Virus record (IMG/VR): IMGVR_UViG_3300006920_000091
Location: 1-40,467 of that record
Source of the DNA: a virus
Length of the DNA: 40,467 nt
Direction: 5' to 3' (one strand)
In this document: one piece after another, positions 3,401 through 33,615 of the stretch
Layout of the letters: every line of letters starts with the position of its first letter
How positions within the stretch are numbered: the stretch's first letter is position 1
Translations under genes and position numbers: made by a program
Notes under the pieces: generated by a model
Seen by the model: only the letters and a program-made list of their open reading frames with translations
Databases searched by the model: none
Told to the model about the DNA's origin: nothing

Positions 3401-6400
3401 GCTTGTCAGTCTTGCTGACATAGAGACCCTGCAAGGCATTGAGGCGTTCGTTTGCCTGGGTCTGGTCGTTCTGGTCGTGAGGGTTCTTGTTCTCACGGAA
3501 GTCAGACACTTTCAGCTTATCCATGACATGTTCATAGATATCTTCCATGCGTGAAAGTGAGTTGGCATTCAGCTCCATGTTGGTCATCAGAGCAGTCTGA
3601 ACCATGAGGAAAGTCGACCAGCCTTGCATGGTTCCCAGACCAGGGAAATGCTGAGCAAAAGATTTCGTGACATCTTTGGCAGCCAGATCTGTTTGAAATA
3701 GCTCTGCCTTGCGGATATCGGCTTTGGCTTTCTGAACCACTGGATTTGACGACCCAGAGTAGTTGTCCTTCATCCAGGAAACGATCCTGTTGTTGAACTT
3801 CTGACGTAGCTCGGATAGCCGGTAATCGGTTCCGAATGTCGCAGAATGATGCAGGACAGTTTCAGAGAAATCCTGCTGCAGATTTTTGACCTTGGACTTC
3901 TGAGCAATCAGAACCTGAGTGTTGAAACGCAGATTCGAGAGCATGTCAGTGCCCACATCTGGACTCGCTGTCTTGCCGAAGATCAGTGACTTCACTGCTT
4001 CCAAGGCTTTACCTATAATCCGGTTCAATGAACTGATCACATCGGTCTCGGCAGCCAGCGTGTTCAGGTGCTGGTTCGACAGGACCCAGGCCATGAACTC
4101 GTTTACCGCGGCAACTTTACGAGATGGATCCTTGTTGAGGCCACCAATCGTCAGTTTGGCTGAGTTGTAAGCATCCTGGATTGCCTCACTCTCAGATGAG
4201 ACATCCTGGGCCAACCATTCATCCATCAACCCTTCGATACGTTTTACCGCGGCAAGACTTTCATTTCCTAGTACCTTGGGATTGTTATAGGCAGCATGCA
4301 CCTTGTCGAGGGTTGCTGCATGGATAACTTCATGGGTCAACGTCTCAACAGAGATGTTAGAGATCAGGATCATCTTGGCAACTAGATCGATCTTACCGTG
4401 ATGGTTGTTGGAACCACGAACAAAACGGTCAGCGTTGTACTCCTGTTCAAATGCATCCAGATTACCGGATGAACCAAACACCAATGTGTATCCACTGTTT
4501 CGCAGGCTTTCCAGTGTGCTTTTCAACACAGCTTTCTGGGTGTCCGTGGTCTTCTTGGGCAAAGCGTCAATCAAACCATCAAGCTGACGATCATGCATGA
4601 CTGTAACTCCAGTCTCATCATCAAACAGACCCTTGGAGTTGATGTGATCACGGAGCGTATGGTTCGAGACTTTATCCTGCTTAGTTGGTTCGGGAACGAT
4701 CTCAGCTTCTTGTATAATCGGAGCATTAAGACCCTTCTCAACACGCAACTCTTCGTAACGAGTCTGCATGGCTGATGCGATCTCACTCATCGTGGCATTT
4801 TCAGCCAGTACGAACTTACCTTTGTTGACGAATGGGCTCTCTGCAGATGCCATCTGGTCAACTGAAAAGTCGAACTCTGCGTAGACCTGGCGCCTGATAT
4901 CAGTTTCGTCTGCATGCCGCTTCAGCTCAGCAAGGGTATCTTCCATAAATGCTCTTGCCACAGTAACAGGCAGAATCTCAGCATTAGCAACATCAAGCCG
5001 ACCCAGTTTTGTCTGGGACAACTCGAGCTTGGCTTGGGCCCTGTGTGCGTCAATCAGGCCCTCAAGAGGGAACAACGTACCAACCGGGTCATTACCCATG
5101 AATGCTGCAAAGCTTTCATAGACGGCCCTTACTGGATTACCATCTCCGGTCCATGTCTTGAACACAGACTCGTTGACCATGGTCGAATACTCGTCGATCA
5201 TATCGGCCGGTAGGTTCACACCATCAAACACATGAAGGACACGCTGCGCTGCCTCTGGATTATCAGCCAGCATGTTCATAATCATCTGGCCGTCACCTGA
5301 ACCAATGACCATAGTTGGAGTGGCTTTCACACCTACCTTTGTTGGGCCATAGACATGAGCCGGCGTAAGCATGTCACCGCTCAACGATCCAGAGAACCCT
5401 TTTGGCATAACGACATCAATGAGCTTACCGTTAATATCGTGCGTAGTCTTTCCAAACAGCTCGGTATTTTCTCCACCTGACATCATGTAGCTTTGTGTAC
5501 CGGTGTCTATAAGCGGAGAGAACTTGAGGAGCTTATTCCGAATATCGGTAAGCTGATTGTAGGAAAGGAATTCTCCATCCACATAATCATAACCTTCTGG
5601 GTCCGATTGCATAAGAGCAATCTGCTTTGTCACTTCATCAATGAAGAGACCCTTTAGGATGATCGACTGGATCTGTGTGGCCGCCTGAATGGTACTCGTC
5701 ACGTCTTTGACGTGTCCGGTAACCTTCGCATCAATTGCATTTCGAAGAGGACCAACCAGGAATGCCAGGACATTATCCTGGAGAGTACCGAACTGCTCCT
5801 TGGTGAGTGTGAAATCTTCCATGGTTCCACTGATCTGAGAGTTGGATCCAGAGACGAAATACCCACCAGTTTTATTGTTCTTACGGACACTCTGAGAGGT
5901 CAATGAAGATAGATCATTCATGAAGGCTTCAGTCTCACCAACCCCATAAATCAATTCACCGGTTGATGTACCAGTCTTGATCGACTCCGAGAGTTTCTCA
6001 TAAATAGTGGAGATGAGCTCATTGGAGATGTTGCCGGCGATACCCTTTGGACCTGAACCATAGATCGTAATCGTCAGAGGGTTCTTGACCAATCCGCGAT
6101 CGATAGAGATTTCTCCATCCTTTATTTCTATGTCGGTCACATTGAGAGCTGCAAGGAACCTCTTGAACTTCACAAAATGTGCATGCGCTTCAGGATTGCT
6201 CTGGGCAATCTCACGACCGAGATCGGACAGAAGAACCTGGGTTGCAATAGAGCTATCCTTATAGAGGTCGACCTTGTCTTCGTGGCTGTTGACAGTCTTT
6301 CCAATACGACCAAAGAACGCCCCACCCTTGGCCACTGCTGTGAGCCATTCCGGTGTGATGACACCAGATGCAAATAGCATCAGTGCATTGATTGGTCCGT

Positions 6401-9400
6401 TGGTTTTACCGTCCGCTTCGAGATAATTGAACGTCTCAAAAGCACTTAGATCAGTGCCATTGTCACGGGCCAGTTCATAACGAGCCACTGCCAACAATGA
6501 GTGCATGCCGTGGTCAGAGAGACCAACATCTTGGAGAAGTTGGTAGAGGGAACCATTGAGGTCTTTTCCATTTTTGTTATCTCTTTGCTCAAGCCAGGTT
6601 TTCATTTCCTGGATAAATGGGTAGAACTTACCGTCTTCCATCATGGTCTTTTCCATAACGGAATACATGACTTCGGACCGTGTCATCTTGTCGGTCTTCA
6701 ACCCAATTCCCTGACCAACAGTCATCAGGAACTTGTCCAGATCCTTACCATTCCCAGAGAGGTCGAGAATCGACTTTGTGGGCATGAAGATTTCACGAGC
6801 TGTCTTGGAAGTCTGTGGATTGGAAGCTCCATCCATCTGGGTACGGCCCAGCTTATTGATGTGGTGCGCGTAAAAAGTAGGAACATTGGTTCCATGTTTA
6901 CGTACCGATGCCATCTGTTTGATTATGTTCTGGTAATCCGCAACAAGACCACGTTGACGACCCTGAATAGATTTCCAATGGTTCTTATTGTAACCCATTT
7001 GGGTGTGCGTCTTCTTGAGATCCCCCTCCTTGTAAGGACTCTTGCTCATCAGAGTTACATAGGCTTCCTCGCCCATGGCTTCATAGAAATCAAACACCAC
7101 ATCATTTGGGAAATATGGCGTTTTCTGGGCATTGCTCAAAGCCCTCTTAGCCATATTGGACAACTTGACCATAGGGTTACGAAGCTGTGTTTCGTCCACC
7201 TCGGTGATGGCTGTACCAATGGAGTACCCTTCAACTTTACGGTCTATGAGAGCCAGGTCAGCCAACAGATCATGGGCACCATTGAGACTTTTGATGAGGT
7301 TTTTAACGTCATCATTTTGTGTATCAACCAACACACGGTTGAACTTCTTCTCGGTCACTCCTGGGAACGAGAGCCTCTTGTCGATACTCTTCTTTTTGAT
7401 ACCCAGCTCGAGCAATCCGGATTGGCCTTCACCAATATCCATGCCGTGTAGGATCTCCGCGGCAACAGCCTCTGGGATACCCTCAACGAATGCATCTCTT
7501 GTGTCTTTGTTGGCTTCAACGCCCCAGAACTTACGAATATTCTGTGCCAGGGACTGCTTGGCAGAGCTCAATGTCATACCGTGGTTGAAGTCTTCCAGGT
7601 GAGCGTAAGCTGTATCTTCGTCAACTCCCATAAGAGCTGCCACATCTGTCACTGACAGTGGAGCGGTCCTGTTGGATGCATTGATGAGCCAGTCTAGAGA
7701 TGCGATGATAGCACTCTCCATCAGCTCCCTGTTATATACGTAACCGGTGTCAGTCTTTTCCATCAGGTTGAGGACGCGAAGATCACGGGACCGGATCAAC
7801 TCTTCGCCATCCTCAATACGCTTCAGAAGGTCACCTTTACCTAGCTTATCCTGCAGACGCTGGTCCACATGAGCCTTCGTCTTGGCTCCGAGTTCCAGAA
7901 GTTTCTTGAACCCTTCTGCCTCTTTGGAGGTAACATCATAGTTGATTTTCTTGCCGTTCATGAATGCTACGAGTTTGGTACTAGATCCAAACAATCTGTA
8001 GAAATCACTCAATGGTTCATTGAGACCAAGCATCCTGGACTTCAGATCCTTGGACAACTTGAATGCCTTGTGGAACCAGTTCTTGTTGTTGACTTGAACC
8101 AGTGTCGGGAACGCTTCTGCGGTCGACAAAGTCGTATCACCCTCCTCTGACATCTGGTCGAGGATTTCGATCACTGACAGTGGTTCTGCTGGTGTTGTTT
8201 CCTGAGTTGTTTTTTCGGTTCTGGCGTCGATCAACGACCCAAGATCCGCAAGGTCTTTCACGACCTTGGTAACTTTAGGTGTTTTAGCGACTGGTTTTGT
8301 ATCAGCCTTAACTTGTTCGCTTGACTGAATCTCTGCCTTACCGGTAGACTCCGCAACGTCAACCCTCGCCAGGGTCTCGTTAACGGGTTCCTTGGTAAGC
8401 TGAGACGGCGAAAGGGGAAGCTCCTCCTGTTGAATTTTAGTGTCCGTCCCGGACGTGGTAGCCTGGGATGATACATTGGATTCGATAGGTGCTGAGCTTC
8501 CCTTTTTATTATCTTGATTATTAGAGGCATTATCAGACTTAATATTAGTCTGATTATCTTGTGTATTATCAAGGAGTAACTTTGGAACCTTGACGTTCGG
8601 AAGACCGAAGTCAGGATACTGTTCCTTGAAGCTGTTGGACAACGAAGCGATCGCCATTGCTTCTGCATGGATCTTACGAGCTGTGCGCTCAGATCCTGCA
8701 CTTCCCACATTTACGCCAAAGCCTTTTTCACTGGAGTAGAACTTACCCTTGGCCGGTGAGAATGCACTGTAGGCAACATTCTTACCGTCACCATTTTTGA
8801 TGGACTGGTTCATTGCCCCAACTTTATTGATGTGGGATTTAGCAAAGCTCGTCAGGTGCTGAGCCAAACGTCGAGCCAGTGCCCTATCACCCTGACTTGC
8901 GGCGTGATTGATCCCAGCGACGTGCTGGGTCAATGAGAGTTGACCATCGCCTTTGCCACCCTCTGTTGCGATCTGTTTGCCAACAAACTCAGACGCTTCG
9001 TCTTTCTCTCTAGTCGCATCAAGCTCAGCTTGTAATTGATCACCCTGTTCAGTCAGGACACCTGGTTCAATAAGCCTGTTCTGTGCCGCGTAGAGCCTTC
9101 CAGCTTCACCGAGGGCAATTGCCCCACGAAGAATACGTCTACGCTCTGGTGACAGTGCCAGAGTCCCGTTGTCAGCATGCAGAAGGATTTGCTCGGCAAC
9201 TTGAGTGCTCAGAGCATGCGGAGCCACGGTAGCGACATCCACGGCTTGGTTGACGATCCTGGTTCCCTTATCCGAGTTGATGTCAACACCGGTCAGATCC
9301 TGATCGGACATTCTCATTTCTTCTCGAGCCCATTTCAGGGACTGACTGATCTCACGGACATTCCTTATTTTTTCCAAAGCAGATGCATATCCCTGGAACT

Positions 9401-26461: not shown

Positions 26462-26683
26462 TTAAACTGCCTTTTTCATATCCTCATCTCCGCGCTTGCG
26501 GAGGTATTCAGTCATAACCCCTTGGACGATCATGAAGATCGGAAACCATTTACCGAAGAGACCGGTAAACAGGGTTGGTTCCACATTGACGGCTACTTCC
26601 AGTACCGTGCCCAGGAATACCTGGGCACGAGCAAGGAAGATCGTTTCGCTGTGTTTGAAGAACTTCTTGGTCTTTGACCACAT
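26462..26683 (-). CDS. Small membrane protein, second holin candidate
   Basis: 73 aa with a basic N-terminus (KTKKFFKHS), two hydrophobic segments (about residues 17-35 and 38-58) and a charged tail (YLRKRGDEDMKK). Starts 3 bp after the endolysin stop. Small proteins ending in a TEYLRKR-like tail are common in tailed phages next to endolysin genes. Two spans with a charged C-terminus are consistent with a holin or antiholin. Confidence 0.65.
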   Translation of the reverse strand: MWSKTKKFFKHSETIFLARAQVFLGTVLEVAVNVEPTLFTGLFGKWFPIFMIVQGVMTEYLRKRGDEDMKKAV

Positions 26684-26686
26684 GGT

Positions 26687-27430
26687 TCAACCCCCACAAA
26701 ATACGCTGATGAGGTTACAAGGGATGTTCGAGAACCATTCCCAGAACGTACCAACCACGACACCAAATGTGACGACTGCAGTTGCACCTACACCAGGAGA
26801 AACTGTCGACTTTGGTTTGTTGGTTGGATGAGTCATCTCCGGGTAATCCTTTGGCGCCTGGTCGATGACTTGTGGTGGTTCGTAGAAGACACCATTCCTC
26901 AAGCTATCAAGCACCTTCTCCACGGTCTCAGGAGAGGTCAGGGACTTGTTGACCCTGTCGCCGGCATAGAAGCTCTGACCGCGTGTGACCTGCCTGTGCT
27001 GGCCTTTGGTTGATGCCAGGACTGGGAAGCTTGCCCACTCCATGGAGAGACGCTTGCCAAACTCAGTTCGACTGATCTGACCTGCCATGAACTTCAGATA
27101 ACCGCGGCGTATCAGCAGGTGGTAAGCCAGACGATCCTGAAGGTCACCATTGAAGATCTGGCCAACTCGTAGACCGAGTTCCTTCTTGAGACCGTTCAAA
27201 GTCGCATACATGAACTGAGGTGCGCCCGTAGCCGAGGAACCATGTGCCTTGGACCAGCCCATCTGAGCCGACTGGACTTCACCCAGGGACATACTGGTCA
27301 GAGGCTTGGCCAGCTTGTATTGCTTGTTGGCGTAGATCACCTCATAGCATTCAGGTGCTGACTGGGAGGTCTCGGTCTGGTAAATGAAGTTCAGCAGCTT
27401 GGCTGCCGGAATCGGAATTGTCTTGTCCAT
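26687..27430 (-). CDS. Endolysin, lysozyme-like, with C-terminal membrane segment
   Basis: 247 aa. N-terminal ~180 residues form a peptidoglycan hydrolase domain: TETSQSAPECYE (candidate catalytic glutamates E20 and E28), SLGEVQSAQ, SSATGAPQFMYATLNGLKKELGL, QDRLAYHLLIRRGY, and RLSMEWASFPV. Similar segments occur in the virion hydrolase at 11236-13905. Residues about 215-240 (TAVVTFGVVVGTFWEWF) form a C-terminal hydrophobic segment ending with two cysteines, so the enzyme could be tail-anchored. N4's endolysin gp61 is an N-acetylmuramidase with an N-terminal signal-arrest-release anchor; this one differs. First gene of the lysis cassette. Confidence 0.8.
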   Translation of the reverse strand: MDKTIPIPAAKLLNFIYQTETSQSAPECYEVIYANKQYKLAKPLTSMSLGEVQSAQMGWSKAHGSSATGAPQFMYATLNGLKKELGLRVGQIFNGDLQDRLAYHLLIRRGYLKFMAGQISRTEFGKRLSMEWASFPVLASTKGQHRQVTRGQSFYAGDRVNKSLTSPETVEKVLDSLRNGVFYEPPQVIDQAPKDYPEMTHPTNKPKSTVSPGVGATAVVTFGVVVGTFWEWFSNIPCNLISVFCGG

Positions 27431-27515
27431 GAGATATCTCGCTTAATATATTATTGATGATTAACATAAATCATATTCATAATAACAATGCACGGATTAT
27501 TAAATAAATAACTGG
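27431..27515 (-). promoter_or_regulatory. AT-rich leader of the lysis cassette
   Basis: Very AT-rich 85 bp ahead of the endolysin gene, holding on the leftward strand AATAATCC (27501-27494) followed by GTGC, and a TATGAT-like hexamer further on. The same AATAATCC plus TGC pattern precedes the terminase and Tad2 operons. Possible late promoter. Confidence 0.3.
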
Positions 27516-27672
27516 TTATCCGTTGTTCGACAGAGAAGTCGCCTGCACCACAAGGGTGGTTGTCCATCCCATCAAACCAATGCAGTCGTGCTGCTCTAGG
27601 ACCTGAACACCTGATCCGTTAAGCCAATGGGCTGTACGTGCGGTGAAACTGCGCATTAACCTTTGGTGCGCC
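27516..27672 (-). pseudogene. Relict C-terminus of a replaced tail protein
   Basis: Just past the stop of the 934-codon tail gene, in a different frame, the leftward strand stays open to a TAA at 27518-27516. Its last 42 codons (27644-27519) align without gaps to the last 42 of the 934-aa protein with 16 identities by eye. Shared residues include NGS, a D, two G, QA and the terminal SNNG. It lacks the rest of the gene. An internal ATG at 27656 (weak AAAGG before it) could yield a 46-aa peptide, but the simplest reading is the leftover 3' end of an older tail gene after its distal part was replaced. Confidence 0.75.
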
Positions 27673-30477
27673 CTACCCGTTATTTGACATTTCCCATGCC
27701 TGCTTCAGTGCCGTGGCACCTGTTCCAATCATCCCAACAACGTCGTTGGTATTGAGTGTTTCATTGGTCGAGCCGTTCATATAGAATGCTGACCTGTCTA
27801 TCGTGACAGCCCCGGCTCCATAAGAATAAAACGTGTATGTCTTGCCGATGACTGCATTGGTACAGGTCTGAATGGTGCCGGTTGTACCATAGGCCAAAAA
27901 CACAGCATCAACGCCTGCCAAGTTTACATTTGTCCCGGACGATTGCGTCAGAACAACAGGTTCACCCTGCACCCGCTTATATGTAGGAGTGTATCCTGCA
28001 CCGGAATATAAGAGCGTCCCGACAGGCACACCGGTCACGCCCTCTATGGCGAGATATTCGGGTGTAGCTGTGCCAGTGGACAAGGTTTGGACAAGCCCGA
28101 CAGCGCCGACTGCTGCAATTTCAAAGTGTGTATTTGAAATCCGCAAAGACGACGCATACGACGCCGATGCACTGTCCAGATAGATTGGTCGTGTCTCCTG
28201 GTTCATGACGAAGTTACCGCCACGAATGATGTACTCAACCGGGGCCGCAGCGTCCGACTGTGTATTCAGGTGGAAGCTACCAAACGATGCCCCGCCTGCG
28301 TTCTTACTGGAGAAGCCGTTGCAGTCGATCACCTCATGCCGACCACCAACGATTTCCGTTGCGTACACCATGACAGTTCCGGTTGAACGGTATTGCCGGA
28401 TCATGCAGTTATCCAGCTTTGAATGCAGACCAGAAAGCGCAGCGGAACCGTTTATCTCACAGTTGTCATAAAAACATTCTTGAGTATTCCCGTGCATACC
28501 AGCCGCGACACTTGCGCCCGTCGCTTCAACAAGGCTGTCGCGGAAACCGCATCTATAATTCTGCGTCGAACCGGGAACGCTTTCGCCACCGATATCCCCA
28601 CCGGTCCATGTCCCACGACCTATGCTGTCTGTGACCACAACATCTGTGGAATTGGCAATCAGTATCGGGTACTGATCCGTCAGCGCAGCATTATCCATGT
28701 TGCCAGACGCGATGATCCGCGTCGGTGTCAAATCCATGCACTGATCAAATTCGATACCCGTGCCATAAGCCTTATCGATCTTGATGTCGTCAATCTCGGC
28801 CCCGGCAGCACGGAAGACCTTAATTGCCGTCCACTTGATTGTGTCCACAATTGCATCAGAGCAATCGAGCTTGAACCCACCAAACTTGCCACCCCACTTG
28901 TGTACCTTGTAAGCCCGTATACCTGTGCCGTAGGTATAGGTGCCAAGCATACGCCCGGATAGGAAAACGGAATTTCCGTTAACGCCCATCACATAATGAC
29001 GTTCGCCACGGAAGTAGTACGTACGGTATGCACTGAATGATGATGAGTTGCCATCAAAAATGCACACCTCATCACCTGCAACCAGACCATGCGCAGACCC
29101 AAAATCGAGTTGCTGAACATCAATCCCCGTGCCCGTGTAGGACGGAAGCTCAGTCATCTGATAGTTGTTGCCATCGGCACAAGTCATGATCATGCGCCCG
29201 CCCATGTACGTAGCCGCTAGGTCAGAATAATCGGTGTCAGCATCGAAATTCGCTGTGCCAAGCGTGGTCACATCGGAGCCAAGTCCTACAAGTTCGACAT
29301 TCGCAGGTTTGATTACTCCTCCAGCCGGAAGTTGTAGAGTACCTCTCTTGTTTATCTCGACGGTTCCGCCACCACTCGCCGAAGCAACCGCCATGGCAAC
29401 ACGAATGTCATCGTTGAATTCACTCGTCTTGAAGAGGTCACCATTTTTCCGGACTCTCAGCCAGGCGCCAACACTACCATCTGTGGCCAGTCCAGAACCG
29501 ACGCCGGGTGCGATGTAGCTTCCTTGAGCGGTGTCGAGGGCGACAGATGCAGAAAGATTGGAACCATCCCAAACGAACTGGCCTTCACGCCCCGCTTCTT
29601 TCAAGAAAGCCTGTGCTTTGATCGTCGGGTCCATTGCAGCGATAGTTGCCCGATCGGCCGAGAATGAATTCGTCGTAGCATCCACTACTGCGGCCACGAT
29701 ATCACCTGGCTGCACTGCTGTGTCTGCCTTGGCTCCCTGCAGAGCAGTGGCGTAGTTTGCGGCTGGAGTGTAGGCAGCTGTACCGAGAGCACCTGGTTGA
29801 ACAGCCGTGTCGGCTTTCGCTCCCTGAGCTGCTGTAGCGAAAGCACTTGCATCCTGGAGAGCTGTATCAGCCTTTGCTCCCTGAACTGCAGTCGCGAAAT
29901 CCTCAACAGCAGACTGCGACGCTGAACCAAGGTTGAGAGCGGTAATGTCCGCTGGTTGGACCGAGCTTGTTGCCAGGACGCCTTCAGGGGACGCTGTGAT
30001 CGTACCAAGCACAAACACTTCCAGGGTCTCAGGCGCCACTTCAGGGGCTGACATGATCCCAGTACCAGTCAGTGTGACCAGTTCGTCACCAGCTGCGTCT
30101 CCGGTGTCGAAATAGATGCTGCCGGTCTTGGCCCCAGTAGTGAGAGGATTGAATGTCATCCGAGCTGCGAAGCTCTCACCCGCCAGGAGAGTTGCCGGCA
30201 AAGTTGACTTCAGAGTGAACTCACCCTCAAGGGTCGAACCATAGATGTTGATCGGCCCATAACCGACATTGGTGATGGTGATCACCTGGGAGTTGGACTC
30301 ATAGGTCTGACCGGTTTCACCGAAATCCAGGGTGGAAACCGAGAGCTGCACATCCTCCTTGACCTTACCATAAGGCATGTCACGGATACGTCGACTGGAC
30401 AAATCTACATCCTGGTCAATGAAATCCTGGAGAGGAGTGTAGCCATCCATTTTTGGATCGTTCAGGTCAATCGCCAT
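27673..30477 (-). CDS. Tail spike/fibre with ASH-type Ig domain and beta-helix
   Basis: 934 aa. Residues 1-40: conserved-looking N-terminal attachment segment. Residues about 43-145: an ASPM/SPD-2/Hydin-like Ig domain (STLDFGETG, ITNVGYGPI, then VTLTGTG). Residues about 195-265: repeats of a QGAKADTAVQPG type unit, as in fibre shafts. Residues about 285-860: pectate-lyase-like beta-helix (VDATTNSFSADR entry, ASGGGTVEINKRGTLQLPAGG, then repeated beta strands with N/S/G turns). A short terminal domain (about 890-934) ends SNNG. It binds and perhaps cleaves surface glycan. The relict gene end beyond its stop shows the distal part was swapped. Base composition is visibly more GC-rich than neighbouring genes. 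Replaces N4 gp65/gp66 in position. Confidence 0.85.
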   Translation of the reverse strand: MAIDLNDPKMDGYTPLQDFIDQDVDLSSRRIRDMPYGKVKEDVQLSVSTLDFGETGQTYESNSQVITITNVGYGPINIYGSTLEGEFTLKSTLPATLLAGESFAARMTFNPLTTGAKTGSIYFDTGDAAGDELVTLTGTGIMSAPEVAPETLEVFVLGTITASPEGVLATSSVQPADITALNLGSASQSAVEDFATAVQGAKADTALQDASAFATAAQGAKADTAVQPGALGTAAYTPAANYATALQGAKADTAVQPGDIVAAVVDATTNSFSADRATIAAMDPTIKAQAFLKEAGREGQFVWDGSNLSASVALDTAQGSYIAPGVGSGLATDGSVGAWLRVRKNGDLFKTSEFNDDIRVAMAVASASGGGTVEINKRGTLQLPAGGVIKPANVELVGLGSDVTTLGTANFDADTDYSDLAATYMGGRMIMTCADGNNYQMTELPSYTGTGIDVQQLDFGSAHGLVAGDEVCIFDGNSSSFSAYRTYYFRGERHYVMGVNGNSVFLSGRMLGTYTYGTGIRAYKVHKWGGKFGGFKLDCSDAIVDTIKWTAIKVFRAAGAEIDDIKIDKAYGTGIEFDQCMDLTPTRIIASGNMDNAALTDQYPILIANSTDVVVTDSIGRGTWTGGDIGGESVPGSTQNYRCGFRDSLVEATGASVAAGMHGNTQECFYDNCEINGSAALSGLHSKLDNCMIRQYRSTGTVMVYATEIVGGRHEVIDCNGFSSKNAGGASFGSFHLNTQSDAAAPVEYIIRGGNFVMNQETRPIYLDSASASYASSLRISNTHFEIAAVGAVGLVQTLSTGTATPEYLAIEGVTGVPVGTLLYSGAGYTPTYKRVQGEPVVLTQSSGTNVNLAGVDAVFLAYGTTGTIQTCTNAVIGKTYTFYSYGAGAVTIDRSAFYMNGSTNETLNTNDVVGMIGTGATALKQAWEMSNNG

Positions 30478-30667
30478 ATCTGCACCTTATTAATTAATAA
30501 TATAAAATTATATTATGATTTATTTTTAACAGATTGCATTATTACTAACAATTAATGTTTTTATAAAATAAAATCATGTTTTCTTTCCGCATAGCAAAGA
30601 GCCTCGCAGTTGCAGGATGTGCTTGTAGCGATGCGCTTGATTGGTCGGCGGCTAGGTCGTTTACTGA
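30478..30667. other. AT-rich spacer between the two tail genes
   Basis: Right half (about 30590-30667) is GC-rich and left half extremely AT-rich, with perfect palindromes TTATTAATTAATAA (30487-30500) and TAATATAA/TTATATTA (30498-30515). No clear gene or tail-end relict was found in any frame. The AATAATGCAATC segment (leftward, about 30539-30528) resembles the AATAATCC leader motif. RBS AAGGTG of the 934-codon gene is at the left edge. Confidence 0.4.
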
Positions 30668-32899
30668 CTAGGCTCGTGATATTTCATAGGCCAGATCGGT
30701 CGCACCTATCTTGTCCAGCATCAAAGTCAGGATGCCGGGGCCGGAGTAGTTCGTCCCGCCAAGTCCAAGCTGCGCGGTGCTCTGAAAGGTGGTGTTGGCG
30801 TTCACCAAGTTGAGATAGACAACCTTGCCCGTGGGGTTGTCTGCTGCAACGATCTGAACGGTCGTCGCCACCGATGCATTGATGTCAAAGTAGTTGCCTT
30901 CAGGCAGCGTCAGCTTGTTGGCAACGACATTCGCTTGGGTTAGCGTAGTGCCTTTCTTGACCGTCAGAAACCCTCCGAGCAGACCTTGTGACTGCTCTCC
31001 TGAAATGAGGGCCTGACTAAACCCGGCCAAGGAAACGCCTGTGTTGTTGAATATCTGAGCCCCGGTAGACCAGGCGACCGGGTCAAAATCGTTGTCGAGG
31101 ATCGAAAACCTTGGCGCTGAGGTGCCTTCCAGCAAAATGCCGAACTGTCCCGATGCTCCAGGCTGTGCAATGATCTTGTTCTTGTGGACTACCTTGAGGT
31201 TAGCGTTGCTGCGCACCTGGATGCCGACAGCACCGACATTATCTGCAAGAGACACCGTATTGCTCTCGATGACGTTGCCGAAGTTGGCGGCTTCGTTGTC
31301 CACGATGCCCACGGCGTAACCATCAAACATGAAGTTGTCAGAAACAGTCGTGTAGTTCGTGTCTGACATCGAGATGCCATTACCGCCGTCGCAGCCCTCG
31401 AAATAGTTCTTCGTGACCGTGCCTCCGCGAACGCCGATGAGGGTCATGCCGTTGAAGGTAAAAGCGCATTCGCAATTTGTGATTTCAGGCTTGAAAATTG
31501 CACCACCGGCTCCGTCGAGTGTAAAGCCGTTCCTGAACCCTCTTGCCGTCAACCCCCTGAACCGGAACAGGCCCGAATCCCGAACCGAGTCGAAGTTGTA
31601 TGCTGTACCCGTTCTCGCGCCTGCTGTGCCCACGGCTGCAAGCCAATCTCCGTTCATCGCATAGCCGTTCTCGACCTCTACAGTTGCGGCGTACTCGATT
31701 TTGATGCCGTCGCCCGTGCCGCGCTGATACACGCTGAACTTTCGTATCCGGCTCAAGCCATAAAAGTGCCTCAGATGCACGACAGGAGTTGTCGATGTTC
31801 CGTCGAAGCGAATACCCTCGATTTCCAACGTGCCGCCGCTGGAGGGGACCGGCCCCTGCAAGTCCTGATACACGGGTGCATCTGTAACGCTGCGGATACA
31901 CGTACCGAACTCGTTCGTCTGAACGAACGGCTCACCATAACCTACACCGAACACCCGGAAAGTCTTGCCGCGCAGATCATCTCCAGGAATAGCGTCCGAC
32001 CGACGATCCCCACCTTTGTAGACGATGCCAGTTGTCAGATAATGACCTTCTGGAATGAAGAAGTCCGCGCCGGAATCAAACGCTGCATCATGCGCAACCT
32101 GCAACAATCCACCGTCAACAGTTGGTGAGAACGGCACGTTGAACTGCGCGGCTGAGATGACCCCTTGGCTGTCTGGGAGAGCGTACAGCTTCACACCGCC
32201 TGCCGTGGTGACGTGCTCTCCAGAAGCAACAACCTCATATCTATACCCGCCCGCTGTGACGATGGTTCCCGCCGTCAGCCCAGTAAGCGTGGTGTCGGCT
32301 ACCAGCAACGGGACCGTTTTGAAATCGTAGATGCCGAGGTTTGTCAGCACCGTGTCTGCGTCGTCGAAGTCGGAGCCGTTGTTGGCGGAGATCAAATCGC
32401 CCGTCCCTGAAATCACGGGATTTTTCGGATCCGTGGCGTCAACCGTGACATTGGTTCCGGCAACAATTGAATCAATTTTCTCGCCCAAAGTGTTTTCAAC
32501 TGCAGTCACCCGACCACCAATCACAGTCAGATCCGCGGCAACTGCCAGGAGAGCTGCCATATTGGTATGTACATTGAGTAGCTCAGTGAGGTTACCGTGA
32601 ACCTGTAGGATCGCAGCCAGGTTTGTGTAGATAGTAGACACGGCATCGATCTGGGCAGCCACTGCAGTGATGCTTGCACTGTTGGCGTTGAGTAGCTCGA
32701 TATCGGCAATCTTGGCCACCACAACCTCAATGTCAGTCATAGAGGCAGACGTCAGGTAAATCTCTGCCATGTGAGACGAGACATGCTTGATATACTCGAT
32801 ATGCTCGGAGACATGGCGAACGATCTTGTAGGCTGAGCCAATGGTCTGATCGACAAGCATGGTCTGATTGTTGTCAGTGGTGAAAGGTTGAATACCCAT
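30668..32899 (-). CDS. Tail spike/appendage with coiled coil and beta-helix
   Basis: 743 aa. Residues 1-150 are helical with heptad-like repeats (LLNANSASITAVAAQIDAV, then LTELLNVHTNMAALLAVAADL), suggesting a trimeric coiled-coil stalk. Residues about 150-215: small beta domain (DATDPKNPVISGTG). Residues about 250-640: pectate-lyase-like right-handed beta-helix (FFIPEGHYLTTGIVYKGG entry; repeated N/G/D turns). Residues about 655-743: terminal beta-sandwich (GKVVYLNLVNANTTF). Its ATG overlaps the stop of the gp67-like gene by 1 bp. Position resembles N4 gp66 appendage. Likely receptor binding or depolymerase. Confidence 0.85.
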   Translation of the reverse strand: MGIQPFTTDNNQTMLVDQTIGSAYKIVRHVSEHIEYIKHVSSHMAEIYLTSASMTDIEVVVAKIADIELLNANSASITAVAAQIDAVSTIYTNLAAILQVHGNLTELLNVHTNMAALLAVAADLTVIGGRVTAVENTLGEKIDSIVAGTNVTVDATDPKNPVISGTGDLISANNGSDFDDADTVLTNLGIYDFKTVPLLVADTTLTGLTAGTIVTAGGYRYEVVASGEHVTTAGGVKLYALPDSQGVISAAQFNVPFSPTVDGGLLQVAHDAAFDSGADFFIPEGHYLTTGIVYKGGDRRSDAIPGDDLRGKTFRVFGVGYGEPFVQTNEFGTCIRSVTDAPVYQDLQGPVPSSGGTLEIEGIRFDGTSTTPVVHLRHFYGLSRIRKFSVYQRGTGDGIKIEYAATVEVENGYAMNGDWLAAVGTAGARTGTAYNFDSVRDSGLFRFRGLTARGFRNGFTLDGAGGAIFKPEITNCECAFTFNGMTLIGVRGGTVTKNYFEGCDGGNGISMSDTNYTTVSDNFMFDGYAVGIVDNEAANFGNVIESNTVSLADNVGAVGIQVRSNANLKVVHKNKIIAQPGASGQFGILLEGTSAPRFSILDNDFDPVAWSTGAQIFNNTGVSLAGFSQALISGEQSQGLLGGFLTVKKGTTLTQANVVANKLTLPEGNYFDINASVATTVQIVAADNPTGKVVYLNLVNANTTFQSTAQLGLGGTNYSGPGILTLMLDKIGATDLAYEISRA

Positions 32900-33615
32900 T
32901 ATACGAAACCTCGTTGCTCAAGTTTATGGTGTGAGATGGAGGTGGTTTGATTCACCAAGTCATTCTTCTCGACATTCGCGCAGTCAGCCTCGTAACCCAT
33001 CTGGTATTCCTGGCTCTTCATGATGTTCTCCTGCCCATTCATGTGGCTGAAGACCTTGCCGGCCACGAAGAGCTGAAGTGCGTTTTCCAGGTAGATCGGT
33101 ATCTCGATGAGCTGATCGACCAGCATGTCAGGTCCATCAATACGGTCATCAAGCTTGGGGTGATGAGCCTGGTAGACGATAGCGATCTCGACACCTGCAA
33201 CTGGATAAGGGATCTGCAGAATGTTGGGCTGTGGAGTGAACAGCGAACATGGATCCGCGGTGTCATTCAGTGGAAATTTCATACCATCAGCACGATACAC
33301 TTCGAGGATCTTGATCAGATCCTCATTGAATGGTTCGTCTGGCAGGTCCTTGATGTACGGCCAATCAACGTCTGACCCAGAGGTCTCGGTGTACCTGCGA
33401 CGCATGTGGTAATTGGTGATGTGAGCCACCTGCTCAACCATCAGAGTTTTCTCGCTGAGGATGAACTTGGTGTGCAAAGCCAGCAGACCGTCATTGATAT
33501 AGTGGATCAGTTGAGGATGCTTCTCCTCAATAATAAGACCTGATCCTGAATCGCTGATCGATAGGTTGGACAGCTCACCGTAAGAGAGTTGTCGAAACAG
33601 TTCGATGACTTTCAT
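32899..33615 (-). CDS. gp67-like structural protein
   Basis: 238 aa, mixed alpha/beta, no signal peptide. Contains LFRQLSYGELSNLSISDSG at the N-terminus, a YHMRRRYTETSGSDVDWPYIK segment, IPYPVAGVEIAIVYQAHHPKLD, and a helical C-terminus. This pattern (SYGEL..., then DP.. ..LQIPYPV) is known from tail adaptor-like proteins next to terminase in N4-like phages; position matches N4 gp67, which is required for tail assembly and host contact. Overlaps the following tail gene by 1 bp. Confidence 0.75.
   Translation of the reverse strand: MKVIELFRQLSYGELSNLSISDSGSGLIIEEKHPQLIHYINDGLLALHTKFILSEKTLMVEQVAHITNYHMRRRYTETSGSDVDWPYIKDLPDEPFNEDLIKILEVYRADGMKFPLNDTADPCSLFTPQPNILQIPYPVAGVEIAIVYQAHHPKLDDRIDGPDMLVDQLIEIPIYLENALQLFVAGKVFSHMNGQENIMKSQEYQMGYEADCANVEKNDLVNQTTSISHHKLEQRGFV

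Follow-up and report, generated by a model that had tools for sequence, protein, structure and literature searches.

The stretch of DNA analysed here (the window) is a complete 40,467-base virus record that covers the late region of an N4-like phage, with all of its genes on the minus strand. These include a terminase, a 30-kDa protein, two tail genes, an endolysin, the portal and the capsid, as well as a giant gene that occupies the place of the virion RNA polymerase, several of the names resting on gene order and similarity. By DNA, the nearest named phages belong to the Schitoviridae (e.g., RiverRider, RHph_I1_6, and ort11). A tRNA search of the sequence gave none.

The segment of interest lies between one of the tail genes and the gene of an endolysin-like protein (Table 1). 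The 934-aa tail protein is composed of an N4-like anchor (residues 1-146, in part to 266), a pectin-lyase core similar to LKA1 gp49 and D3 orf27 (phrog_13768, PF22442) that spans residues ~433-850, and a C-terminal part which, in an alignment with LKA1, D3, and Fyn8, is unlike that of LKA1/D3 from residue ~850 onward, including the 40 residues that recur in the segment described below. Comparison of the last 125 residues with solved structures gave matches at chance level only, and a structure prediction made for them without an alignment reached a mean pLDDT of 44, too poor for use. Weak similarity to the last ~80 residues was detected in the tail proteins of some relatives (L050 and L065). 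On the minus strand neither a promoter nor a terminator was found between the stop of the tail gene and the endolysin gene; the sole terminator-like site is located inside the latter. Relatives of the endolysin-like protein with up to 69% identity occur in many viral contigs outside the set retrieved by the portal search, and the lysis gene may thus be exchanged with other phage groups.

Table 1. Features where the 934-aa tail gene ends and in its surroundings (positions in the window).
Feature	Position	Strand	Description and evidence
Endolysin-like protein, 247 aa	26687..27430	-	downstream of the tail gene; phrog_90, E 1e-33
AT-rich gap	27431..27515	-	24% GC; before the endolysin gene
Relict stop codon	27516-27518	-	TAA
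46-aa ORF	27516..27656	-	contains the relict; ATG 27656, TAA 27516-27518; open frame, coding-like codon usage
Relict, 40 codons	27519..27638	-	ungapped homology with residues 895-934 of the tail protein
Intact counterpart of the relict	27676..27795	-	last 40 codons of the tail gene, residues 895-934
934-aa tail protein	27673..30477	-	tblastn; Pfam PF22442, E 7e-13; phrog_13768, E 2e-37
Second tail protein, 743 aa	30668..32899	-	N4-like anchor and beta-helix; Pfam PF13229

Immediately past its stop codon, the 934-aa tail gene is followed, on the same strand and in the +1 frame relative to it, by a 40-codon segment (the relict, with the C-terminal sequence ...LVVQATSLSNNG) that aligns without gaps with residues 895-934 of the tail protein, 16 of the 40 positions being identical and both sequences ending in SNNG followed by the stop. 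The BLOSUM62 local score of the relict against the tail protein is 83 (E 2.6e-6), whereas shuffled versions of the fragment, 2,000 of them compared with the complete tail protein and 5,000 with its final 60 residues, scored 50 at most, and none of 6,448 random 500-nt phage stretches reached a score of at least 83. The homology between the relict and the end of the tail protein is therefore far beyond chance. This agrees with the sequence-only reading of the locus, which had recognized behind this gene a relict of the tail-protein C-terminus with the same SNNG ending and without an upstream gene; its count of 16 identical residues was right in substance, although the homologous stretch comprises 40 codons instead of the 42 it had assigned.

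Similarity between the two sequences stops immediately upstream of the 40 codons, the upstream half of the C-terminal domain being absent, and the parent thus survives only as its end, with its start and the greater part of the gene missing. No start-bearing gene was found upstream in the frame of the relict, and that this frame stays open over 62 codons is due solely to its overlap with the end of the tail gene. Neither the fragment (54% GC) nor the tail gene stands apart in base composition, GC content being uninformative as a sign of import. In the loci compared, the fragment resembles the adjacent gene only; against the C-terminus of the 743-aa tail protein it scored 17, within the range of shuffles, and inspection by eye of the 190-nt gap before the 934-aa tail gene revealed no hidden relict.

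The last 70 residues of 906 genes (122 records) were compared with the 400 bases behind each of them. Mismatched gene/downstream pairs never reached 65 (0 of 2,684; maximum 58), and above this maximum were L050/L051 (104), L111 (96), the window (83), L088 (69), and L042 (64). The match in L088 is rich in arginine and proline and probably represents a shadow ORF; that in L042 was set aside as masked or repeated sequence, and those in L019 and L103/L104 as low-complexity probable shadow ORFs. Among the 906 genes, only two cases are comparable to the window, L050 (together with L051) and L111. In L050 (3440-6293), a complete tail gene of 829 aa has behind it an ORF of 111 aa (5958-6293) that lacks the distal part and runs from a tail anchor straight into the final 40 residues of the same C-terminus (scores 172 and 104 against shuffle maxima of 64 and 52). 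The same block is present in L051 (4820-7673), identical in two separate records. In L111 the virion gene at 11019-13373 has its own 3' end copied behind it over 45 codons (13382-13516); the copy is broken by an in-frame TGA, scores 96 and matches the gene at 28, 32, and 9 of 45 first, second, and third codon positions.

It could be argued that the 46-aa ORF functions as a small gene of its own, encoding a separate piece of the tail C-terminus that helps to trimerise, cap or chaperone the tail protein. Its frame is intact, its codon usage is coding-like (0.13 bits/codon for the fragment, compared with 0.33, sd 0.13, for the genes of the window and -0.68, sd 0.31, for shadow frames), and dN/dS between the relict and the tail end is about 0.28 (dN 0.69; dS 2.5, near saturation). 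Small genes beside tail-fibre genes do exist in the Schitoviridae: passages on Litunavirus describe a 195-nt gene that recombines jointly with the tail fibre gene (PMC9786124), and a tail-fibre chaperone is mentioned in those on the Alteromonas schitovirus A5 (PMC10579305). An open, coding-like frame fits a young remnant, yet it would fit a small gene too. However, the ORF is absent from every relative and collection searched and holds no more of the domain than its final 40 residues; its sole Shine-Dalgarno-like motif, AAAGG, is poorly placed at 3 nt from the ATG, whereas the clear sites of other genes of the window stand at ~7-9 nt. The low dN/dS is accounted for by the time that the sequence would have spent in a working gene before it was stranded. 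This explanation is therefore considered improbable, and the 46-aa ORF is probably not a gene. Slimmer still are the chances that the ORF is translated as a separate C-terminal cap or folding helper belonging to a class of stand-alone C-termini that would include the mini-protein of L050. The sequence-only reading had entertained that a 46-aa peptide might still be made, which these observations do not support; the dN/dS ratio that it had suggested as an indicator did fall below 1, as a translated sequence would have it, but is explained by the history of the fragment before stranding.

The window derives from a single IMG/VR record, and an assembly artefact, in which the tail alleles of two strains were joined in a metagenome contig, would also place two related ends side by side. 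Two contigs of metagenome 3300025645, 99.8% identical to the window, stop at 26483 and 33226, on both sides of the tail/endolysin block (26484-33225), which is therefore left without a second witness and may be strain-variable. On the other hand, the DNA identity of the two ends over the aligned 120 nt (48%) is too low for overlap joining, which makes a misjoin driven by overlap unlikely, and the comparable layout of L050/L051 recurs unchanged in two independent records. An artefact of this sort is regarded as quite unlikely.

The two copies are adjacent, on the same strand, ungapped and with the same ending, as would be expected if the end of the tail gene itself had been duplicated in tandem on the spot and had then decayed neutrally. 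The pattern of their divergence argues strongly against this origin, as matches between the relict and the tail end are distributed over codon positions 1, 2, and 3 as 17, 27, and 14 of 40. In 5,000 simulated runs of neutral decay down to 48% DNA identity, matches at position 2 exceeded those at position 3 as strongly as observed in 0.2% of the runs and the frame of the relict stayed open in 20%; the number of identical residues left was ~8 (maximum 14 in the 300 runs scored), compared with the 16 observed. Based on the codon-position skew together with dN/dS, the piece would once have ended another tail gene, a decayed local duplication being very improbable. Most likely, judging from this pattern, both ends diverged as coding sequence while each belonged to a working protein of its own, and became neighbours afterwards. 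No likelier is that ribosomes shift by +1 close to the stop and so extend the tail protein with the segment as an alternative C-terminus: the relict frame does run open across the final codons of the tail gene, but the product would carry a second, incomplete C-terminus behind a complete one, no obvious slippery signal was seen by eye and the arrangement is absent from the relatives examined.

Considering the homology of the two ends, their divergence at the protein level and the comparable cases in two other N4-like phages, we infer, with a probability of about 0.8, that the segment is a dead remnant, devoid of function, that comprises the final 40 codons of a separate tail gene sharing the type of the 934-aa gene and was left by recombination in the tail slot. 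That this slot is subject to such events is suggested by its relatives. Residues 1-146 of the 934-aa protein correspond at 59% to those of L031 and residues 1-266 at 47% to those of L040, with unrelated sequence beyond, so that, judging from these alignments, the distal part of the gene is exchanged wholesale between relatives and just the N-terminal anchor is common to them. The full-length parent that the sequence-only reading had expected tblastn with the fragment to uncover did not appear: no tail gene with this ending was detected in phages (E up to 10) or in viral contigs, and the parent, which may be unsampled, is consequently deduced from the remnant. The intact tail C-terminus likewise found no relative among phages, plasmids, viral contigs, and GTDB genome contigs, its one match in phages (E 1) being unconvincing, and the record of the closest relative, L040, is cut before its tail gene ends.

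The recombination that stranded the remnant would have connected the position just behind the present tail stop with one that lay about 40 codons short of the stop in the other gene. Two routes may have led to this join. In the first, which comes near to an even chance, two tail genes with related C-termini would have stood in tandem and a deletion would have taken nearly all of the second. In the other, plausible though at somewhat longer odds, a newly arriving distal module, stop codon included, would have displaced the resident 3' end through a crossover out of register. The N4-like tail slot often holds tandem tail genes, some of them with common C-termini: their number varies, with several in ort11 and X2_28B and two in Pastis and in L078, where the two full genes (5042-7118; 345 and 340 aa) have C-termini that are alike (score 186). 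This variation and the layout of L050 indicate that the loss of a tandem gene is at least as likely as displacement. Since both routes leave the same join they are not separable, and the insertion of a new distal module with its own stop, which the sequence-only reading had favoured as the simplest history, is thus one of two equivalent explanations; its more general proposal of a recombination scar is supported by the protein-level divergence, the swapped distal parts and the cases of L050 and L111, the last two having emerged from the 906-gene scan. Neither junction repeats nor inverted repeats of use were found at the locus. A shufflon or invertible C-terminal cassette does not fit, as no inverted repeats of at least 16 nt are present in 27300-33000, and neither does a diversity-generating retroelement, which combines a reverse transcriptase with a near-identical repeat that differs chiefly at adenines, the identity seen here being 48%.

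Stranded C-terminal ends have been described for rhs genes, in which displacement of the C-terminus leaves dissociated tips (Jackson et al., 2009, PMC2935791). The tail locus resembles them in that a gene with a conserved core and an exchangeable C-terminus has, stranded behind it, the end of a C-terminus that is either a former or a related one. The dissociated Rhs tips, however, carry core sequence in front, form long arrays and are proposed to arise through a circular intermediate with homologous core (PMC2935791), whereas the relict is a single 40-codon stub with neither core nor anchor sequence in front and no repeats, and its old and new ends are homologous. Within the Schitoviridae, the exchange of parts of tail genes is well documented in passages on Litunavirus and phage A5 (PMC9786124; PMC10579305), members of the same phage family in which, as in the window, tail genes swap the part for host recognition and the genome is otherwise stable; these passages describe the exchanged genes and not a stranded 3' remnant.

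The finding represents ordinary phage mosaicism, a fresh instance of a familiar kind, and the relict can be viewed as a minor fossil trace of the way in which N4-like phages alter the protein with which they take hold of the host surface or cut it. Together with L050 and L111 it provides a marker, a second copy of the 3' end right behind the stop of a gene, by which past exchanges or losses of tandem genes can be revealed in single genomes without the parent. The virion gene copied in L111 sits outside the tail-fibre slot, which suggests that the mark is a general one, not confined to receptor binding.
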